Source: an uncultured Clostridium sp. (GTDB taxonomy: Bacteria > Bacillota > Clostridia > Oscillospirales > Oscillospiraceae). Taken from it: a DNA stretch of 33,153 nt. Below the pieces are notes generated by a model. The model saw only the letters and a list, made by a program, of their open reading frames with translations. It was not told where the DNA came from and searched no databases. The stretch is from assembly GCA_904420465.1 (NCBI GenBank), contig CAJFVL010000014.1:1-33153 (forward strand), in the 5' to 3' direction. Positions 3,754 through 29,408 of this stretch are shown here, in pieces. The translations under genes were made by a program, and so were the position numbers. Position 1 is the first letter of the stretch, and each line of letters begins with the position of its first letter.

Positions 3754-3952
3754 TGTGGGTTCCTCCTCACGTTCTGGTAATGGACCGCTCCCCTGCAGTC
3801 CCGGCGGCCCTCACGGCTGCCTCAGCCCCCATTATACCGTCCCCCCGCCGCCTCCGCAACTTTATTTTTTTACTCTTTCAACAAAAAGAGCTTGTTCTGT
3901 TTTTTCTTGATGGACAAACCCTACAACCCCCGGCCCAACCGGATAATAAAAA

Positions 3953-4195
3953 GGCGCCCTCCCGGGCACCTCAGCCTGTCAAAAAAGCCCTCCTGCAAGG
4001 AGTTCCGCCGTCCGCAGACGGCGGAATAAAATGAGATCCTGTCATTTCCGGCGGCATGTACGTCGGAAATGACGCCTCTCACGCAAGGCGGGACGACTTT
4101 TCCGCTCGGAATCGAGTCCCGCCTTGCGTGCTTACTTTCTCGAAAAAGCGGCTTTGCCGCTTTTTCGACAGCCACAGGCGCCCTCCCGGGCGCCT
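3953..4195. repeat. Repeat copy 1 (194-bp core 3977-4170) flanked by 19-bp direct repeats of a terminator-like hairpin core (3953-3971 and 4177-4195, 18/19 identical)
   Basis: Core shares near-identical internal sequence with 21562-21754; ends TGTCAAAAAAG...CTTTTTCGACA; multiple internal hairpins. Confidence 0.85.
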
Positions 4196-19415: not shown

Positions 19416-19476
19416 ACGGCGGCCCCCTCGAATGGGCCGAATGCCCCGCAAAGCATTGCGGCCCGCGCAGCGGGGG

Positions 19477-19503
19477 CGTTTGTACCACGCAGTGGTACAA
19501 ACG
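19477..19503. repeat. Perfect 12-bp-stem hairpin CGTTTGTACCAC-GCA-GTGGTACAAACG between convergent genes
   Basis: Direct reading. Confidence 0.8.
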
Positions 19504-19517
19504 CAGCGGCATTGCAA

Positions 19518-19555
19518 AGCCTGTCAAAAAAGTCCGGGGACTTTTTTGACAGGCT
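19518..19555. terminator. Bidirectional terminator between the EamA-like gene and sfsA
   Basis: Perfect 18-bp inverted repeat AGCCTGTCAAAAAAGTCC-GG-GGACTTTTTTGACAGGCT between convergent genes. Confidence 0.8.
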
Positions 19556-19583
19556 GGGCTTGTTCTTCTGTTTTTGCCCCGGC

Positions 19584-21530: not shown

Positions 21531-21785
21531 AGCGCCCCGGCGAAAGCCGGGGCGCTCAGCTTGTCGAAAAAGCCCTCCTGCAAGGAGTTCCGCCGTCCGC
21601 AGACGGCGGAATAAAATGAAATCCTGTCATTTCCGGCGGCGTGTACGTCGGAAATGACTCATCTCACGCAATTTGATTCGACAATTTCTCAAGAAATCGA
21701 GAAACAAATTGCGTGCAGCCTTTCTCGAAAAAGTGGCTTGCCACTTTTTCGACAGTCCCAGCGCCCCGGCGAAAGCCGGGGCGCT
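21531..21785. repeat. Repeat copy 2 (193-bp core 21562-21754) flanked by exact 26-bp direct repeats of a terminator-like hairpin (21531-21556 and 21760-21785)
   Basis: AGCGCCCCGGCGAAAGCCGGGGCGCT on both sides; 11-bp perfect terminal inverted repeat TGTCGAAAAAG...CTTTTTCGACA; shares internal sequence with copy 1. Confidence 0.88.
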
Positions 21786-25111: not shown

Positions 25112-25328
25112 TTGGCGTTGTTTCCTGCTCGGTGCGTGATGGGCTCTTTTAAACCCACATCTTTTAAACGGGACGCCCCCTCACGGCGCGGCTTGCAGGC
25201 CTCCCGGCCCCCTTTGAGGTCAGCTGGAAGTTGGAAGCAGTAAAACGTCGTGGAGGCGACCCACCTGCCACTTCGTGCAGGTTTTAAACGGGTCCACACG
25301 GCCAGAGCGGGGTTAGAAACGACGCTGG
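25112..25328 (+). ncRNA. ssrS: Probable 6S RNA
   Basis: Closing stem GCGTTGTTTC (25115-25124)/GAAACGACGC (25316-25325) continued by CTGCTC/GAGCGG, about 200 nt in length, followed by an intrinsic terminator; position after a DUF1292 gene; family assignment partly from recall. Confidence 0.6.
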
Positions 25329-29242: not shown

Positions 29243-29256
29243 CGCTGTTTGACACC

Positions 29257-29377
29257 CTCATCTTGCGATACACCACCGCCGGATTTGGCACCTTGCCTTC
29301 CCGCCGCCCAAAGCAGGCGGCGACCAGGCAGGTTGCCGTGGCGTCACAGGGCCGGTCCCTCAGCCACTCTTGATAAG
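29257..29377 (-). promoter_or_regulatory. SAM-I (S-box) riboswitch upstream of metK
   Basis: Minus strand CTTATCAAGAGTGGCTGAGGGACCGGCCCTGTGACGCCACGGCAACC...AAGGCAAGGTGCCAAATCC...AAGATGAG matches the S-box core. Confidence 0.95.
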
Positions 29378-29408
29378 GTTATTTACTTGTACGATCAGGT
29401 ATAATAGG

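Follow-up and report, generated by a model that had tools for sequence, protein, structure and literature searches.

Two copies of a hairpin-rich element and their flanks

The window examined here, a stretch of 33,153 nucleotides (contig CAJFVL010000014.1 of assembly GCA_904420465.1) from an uncultured Clostridium sp. of the Oscillospiraceae, contains two copies of a ~204-nt non-coding element, both on the + strand. The first, which adjoins a rubrerythrin gene, occupies positions 3972-4175 and the second 21557-21759; at 204 and 203 nt in length, the two are 83% identical over 193 nt. The element carries no transposase gene, and the open reading frames that cross it are spurious, mechanical calls. 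Copy 1 (CAGCCTGTCAAAAAAGC...GCTTTTTCGACAGCCAC) was delimited by the duplicated host hairpins on either side of it and by the boundary T/CAG...CTG/A (slashes mark the junctions) of insertion sequences of the IS1182 family. It opens with a left terminal inverted repeat (CAGCCTGTCAAAAAAGC, 3972-3988), which matches the IS1182 ends CAGCTTGTCAAAAAACC and CAGCCTGTCGAGAAAGG, followed by five hairpins, all on the + strand. Hairpin 1 (CTCCTGCAAGGAG, 3990-4002) is directly abutted by hairpin 2 (TTCCGCCGTC-CGCA-GACGGCGGAA, 4003-4026), a stem of 10 bp, and hairpin 3 (GTCATTTCCGGCG-loop-CGTCGGAAATGAC, 4041-4073) comprises 13 bp, including a conserved G.T wobble, closed by a conserved 7-nt loop. Hairpin 4 (4080-4130) has an outer stem of 15 bp and a conserved asymmetric internal loop (GAC/TCGAG), and hairpin 5 (4140-4168) is composed of an A-run, a GC stem and a T-run, its 3' arm forming the right terminal repeat. 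In copy 2, the arms of hairpin 4 lie at 21665-21675/21705-21715 and hairpin 5 at 21725-21752, both on the + strand. An earlier note on this sequence had placed both copies and every hairpin that it named correctly, including hairpins 4 and 5 of copy 2; the span that it gave for the first copy, 4024-4168, does hold hairpins but falls short of the full unit, which is longer at both sites.

Each copy sits between two copies of a host hairpin. For copy 1 these lie at 3952-3971 (AGGCGCCCTCCCGGGCACCT) and 4176-4195 (AGGCGCCCTCCCGGGCGCCT), the duplicated hairpin (AGGCGCCCTCCCGGGCRCCT) being terminator-like with its T-tract on the - strand, and for copy 2 an identical sequence (AGCGCCCCGGCGAAAGCCGGGGCGCT) is present at 21531-21556 and 21760-21785. 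This arrangement extends to most copies for which both flanks are available, which are found between two copies of a whole, terminator-like hairpin of ~20-40 nt that is specific to its locus, the sequence varying from one locus to the next. A scan for repeated stem-loops returned ~45 loci at which 150-350 nt separate two stem-loops in the same direction; almost all of them belong to this element or to a related family (family B, see below), a few rows representing other repeats. A direct repeat of at least 14 nt spans the element in ~36 of ~57 usable copies (the raw count at match score 14 was 40 of 61, from which four short-flank artefacts were removed by eye), compared with 2 of 181 mispaired flanks. 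These duplications consist of inverted repeats, with a median stem score of 7.5 versus 4 in shuffles. In relatives that lack the insertion (L248, L249 and L259), one hairpin, different in sequence, lies after the rubrerythrin gene, which is what a site not reached by the element would be expected to show; because the hairpins are not conserved in sequence, the loci represent orthologous positions and not exact pre-insertion sequences.

Within its own genome (a 2.35-Mb draft in 133 contigs), the 46 BLAST rows obtained for the element reduce to ~35 distinct copies, which are full, truncated or cut by a contig end, and many contigs terminate within a copy. Matches were found in 19 of 60 related genomes, and a hairpin-3 pattern scan identified at least 114 loci in records of the Oscillospiraceae and of other Clostridiales, among them Flavonifractor sp. 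An10, Pseudoflavonifractor capillosus An827 and Clostridiales bacterium CCNA10 (a complete genome). One 2.0-Mb genome (G061, the JAJUGN01 record of L068) contains the terminal-repeat motif 154 times, which suggests a recent burst of copies. The element has no Rfam match at gathering level, and none at E<=1 in L001; no description of an Oscillospiraceae element of this kind was found in the open-access literature searched.

Covariation and strand-specific folding

The earlier note had read the paired differences between the two copies as a sign of selected secondary structure. The alignment comprised 51 copies of the subtype present in the window, drawn from 145 distinct hairpin-3 loci and aligned, almost without gaps, on sequence only; it was compared with a null of 200 alignments simulated on an IQ-TREE tree with the gap pattern retained, using a G-test with average product correction (APC) as the statistic. 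Covariation exceeded this phylogenetic expectation at E<0.05 in 15 of 55 stem pairs, in agreement with selection on structure: three of 10 pairs in hairpin 2, one of 13 in hairpin 3, nine of 15 in the outer and one of four in the inner stem of hairpin 4, and one of 13 in hairpin 5. Invariant stem pairs are uninformative in either direction. When all 16,471 column pairs were tested, nine were significant, seven of them stem pairs; an eighth joins the outermost bases of the hairpin 3 loop (4054-4060 in the window), which swap A..G for G..A, a non-Watson-Crick exchange.

A G.C pair that decays via C->T is a G.T on one strand and an A.C on the other, and selection on a folded single strand is therefore expected to bias these intermediates, whereas selection on a duplex palindrome is not. 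By parsimony on the tree, the wobble intermediates of hairpins 3 and 4 on the + strand comprise 35 origins of G.T against five of A.C (p=1.4e-6), whereas those of hairpins 2 and 5 are balanced (15 and 16, respectively). This indicates that hairpins 3 and 4, unlike hairpins 2 and 5, evolve as if only the + strand were folded. The target of selection is thus the + strand in a single-stranded fold, be it RNA or single-stranded DNA (ssDNA), for which the wobble test gives the same outcome, and the suggestion of the earlier note that the structure matters in one of these two forms is upheld.

Paired changes could also arise in the absence of selection if replication slippage or template switching copied one arm of a palindrome onto the other. 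Long perfect palindromes are known to be corrected by arm copying, and the observation that whole hairpin 4 arms differ between element subtypes favours such a process. However, arm copying predicts no strand bias, in conflict with the G.T excess of hairpins 3 and 4 in the very copies whose hairpins 2 and 5 are unbiased, and the GAC/TCGAG internal loop and the G.T pair of hairpin 3 have been retained rather than converted into a perfect palindrome. It is therefore an improbable origin for the paired changes.

Terminal repeats and a probable IS1182-family partner

The element has, at both ends, an inverted repeat of the form CAGnYTGTCRAAAAA. In CCNA10, the DDE_Tnp_1 proteins fall inside matches to this terminal-repeat motif, and four insertion sequences (ISs) of that genome begin with CAGCTTGTCAAAAAACC immediately after a host hairpin. 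Duplicated hairpins of 34-37 nt border the CCNA10 copies L270, L272 and L276 and also an IS of Flavonifractor An10 (L267) with the ends CAGCCTGTCGAGAAAGG/CAGGCTGTCGAAAAAGTCC; at L268, a matching hairpin is present on the left side only. The transposases of these ISs, of 476 and 465 amino acids, match NF033551 (NCBIfam IS1182) at 394 and 370 bits, the cut-off being 270. The element end CAGCTTGTCRAAAAA matches the IS ends CAGCTTGTCAAAAAACC and CAGCCTGTCGAGAAAGG, and both the T/CAG...CTG/A boundary and the duplication of a whole hairpin are common to the element and the autonomous IS1182 copies, which occur in CCNA10 and An10, two genomes that also carry element copies. The mobilisation envisaged in the earlier note is thus supported by terminal inverted repeats, by whole-hairpin target duplications and by the matching ends of autonomous IS1182 elements. 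Pairing of terminal repeats gave no convergent exact-motif pair at insertion-sequence distance in the genomes G016, G010 and G011, nor among the matches listed for G061 and G062; the right end of the CCNA10 IS (CAGCTTGTCAAAGAAC) does not fit the exact motif.

The element belongs to an inverted-repeat-targeting family of miniature inverted-repeat transposable elements (MITEs) with a structurally selected interior. Its IS1182-type ends, the whole-hairpin duplications and the existence of autonomous IS1182 elements that match it in ends, boundary and duplication make it probable, on sequence grounds, that it is a non-autonomous MITE moved in trans by IS1182-family transposases, inserting at, and duplicating, terminator stem-loops. 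The transposase would recognise the element ends and join them to the 5' feet of a target stem-loop extruded as a cruciform, and gap repair would then copy the whole stem-loop to generate the duplication. Terminator function may survive such an insertion, which would make terminators safe landing sites. IS1272 and TnSha1, members of the IS1182 family from staphylococci, also target terminator stem-loops with no primary-sequence consensus, but insert in the terminator hairpin, which is lost, and no duplication is formed (PMC4923244, PMC5678879). In a proposed alternative, 'pathway b', joining would take place at the stem-loops' 5' feet and the whole stem-loop would be duplicated (PMC5678879). 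Whereas IS1272 deletes or replaces its stem-loop, the loci of the present element show the whole stem-loop duplicated and look like the outcome of this 5'-feet joining; the element differs further from IS1272 and TnSha1 in lacking a transposase gene, its partner ISs being of the same family by NCBIfam. The copies provide a large natural data set for stem-loop-duplicating transposition of the IS1182 type, so far a drawn hypothetical alternative for IS1272, and suggest how terminators could serve such elements as safe sites and yet remain intact.

Several observations weigh against this interpretation. Hairpin duplication was not seen in about a third of the usable copies, and the similarity between the element and the ISs is limited to ~15 terminal nt, with nothing recognisable inside. 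The carriers G011 and G061 and the element's own draft genome (88.6% complete) yielded no DDE_Tnp_1 protein, and their partner may therefore have been lost or missed, or may be a different one; for the lineage of the window, an IS1182 transposase remains the putative mover. With regard to the folded + strand, no sigma-70-like promoter was detected at copy 1 and the orientation of insertion shows no bias relative to upstream genes or terminator T-tracts (16 versus 12). Transcription of the + strand is consequently not supported, and an RNA function would need read-through or promoters missed by the scan.

The MITE could instead be moved by another enzyme, such as an IS30-type transposase like that of IS1630, whose targets have reportedly been attributed to transcription terminators. 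IS1630, from Mycoplasma fermentans, is reported to insert at inverted repeats, whose length varies, and to duplicate them, according to a title (Calcutt 1999) cited in PMC3317919 and PMC7648426, and a passage of PMC3317919 gives duplications of this type of 16-26 bp in M64. The inverted-repeat duplication is alike in the two cases, but the transposase family is different. Copies of the present element also occur in genomes in which IS1182 was not found. Nevertheless, the IS30 elements present in 15 of 40 relatives have neither these ends nor hairpin duplications at the loci examined, none was found in the element's own genome, and the IS1182 copies match the element in ends, boundary and duplication; movement by such an enzyme is therefore quite unlikely. 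Two other candidates were rejected. None of the rve-domain transposases in five genomes has these ends, and G011 contains element copies but no rve match, whilst for Y1/HUH transposases a single sub-threshold Y1_Tnp match was found in the element's own genome.

The structured core, remaining alternatives and related families

The core of the element is also found on different ends. Fourteen copies, mostly from rabbit-gut metagenome genomes (L072, L089, L099, L118, L127, L131, L136, L139, L140, L147, L153, L156, L166 and L172), have the same core but start with GCCTCGCAGAG and terminate in a hairpin, CGTTTGAAAG...CTTTCAAACGACT; these different-end copies (GCCTCGCAG ... CAAACGACT) are without the IS1182-type left repeat and show no evident hairpin duplication. 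The simplest reading is that an older, structured element probably acquired IS1182-type ends. An interior under one-strand structural selection is not expected of a MITE that is a passive deletion derivative, and raises the testable question of a role for RNA or ssDNA in mobilisation. The core formed by hairpins 1-4 is a putative structured RNA (more likely) or ssDNA that may help the element to spread. A more specific proposal, which is at present doubtful, is that a structured non-coding RNA, encoded by the element, takes part in the spread of the element, for instance as a ligand of the IS1182 transposase or in the choice of target stem-loops, and that the element represents an older RNA-bearing element with captured IS ends. 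If true, such an element would be a DNA-transposon counterpart of a short interspersed nuclear element (SINE).

A further scenario, in which no transposon is involved, holds that the repeat is a host-beneficial cis element, or an ordinary terminator or repeat of the repetitive extragenic palindromic (REP) type, whose fold stabilises or terminates upstream transcripts. The position of copies at gene ends would fit such a role, as would the terminator-like character both of hairpin 5, flanked by A- and T-runs, and of the target hairpins. This is, however, very improbable given the hairpin duplications, the terminal repeats shared with IS1182, the single hairpin at orthologous loci and the unbiased orientation with respect to terminator T-tracts noted above. 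Even less credible is a SINE-like element copied from RNA by a reverse transcriptase of the group II intron type, with variable duplications arising from target nicking: the + strand is structured, duplication length does vary and some carriers possess reverse transcriptases, but that length tracks the target hairpin, the inverted repeats at the ends are shared with a DDE insertion sequence and an RVT_1 match is absent from the element's own genome and from G061.

In common with the prokaryotic MITEs reviewed in PMC10969869 (BOX, RUP, QMITE, BrickBuilt and others), the element is short, non-coding and present in high copy number, with terminal repeats, target duplications and a stable predicted fold. 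Unlike these, its interior exhibits covariation tested against a tree and strand-specific wobble, and its core is also found on different ends; in its passages on terminators, target sites and IS30, that review mentions no MITE that duplicates stem-loops. The element resembles REP/REPIN sequences, which have REP-associated tyrosine transposases (RAYTs), in being palindromic, extragenic and present in many copies, but is set apart from them by whole-hairpin duplications, DDE-type ends and an own genome whose one Y1_Tnp match is below threshold.

Family B is a second multi-hairpin element, with ends of the type CAGCCTGTCRAAAAAGTC..., whose intact copies are ~220-230 nt long and also lie between duplicated host hairpins (L046, L049, L051 and L054). 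The window holds a remnant of it with related ends on the - strand (19425-19556, boundaries approximate), which looks truncated. In the main family, some copies (L019, L027, L072 and L173) contain a ~110-nt insert within hairpin 4, with a conserved motif (GGGAGAGGAGGAGC) 3' of a strong hairpin, and a stretch similar to this insert also stands alone, without the element, at L156:5731. Elsewhere in the window, positions 25119-25317 correspond to 6S RNA and positions 29255-29379 to an S-adenosylmethionine (SAM) riboswitch located 5' of an S-adenosylmethionine synthetase-like open reading frame, both of which are ordinary.
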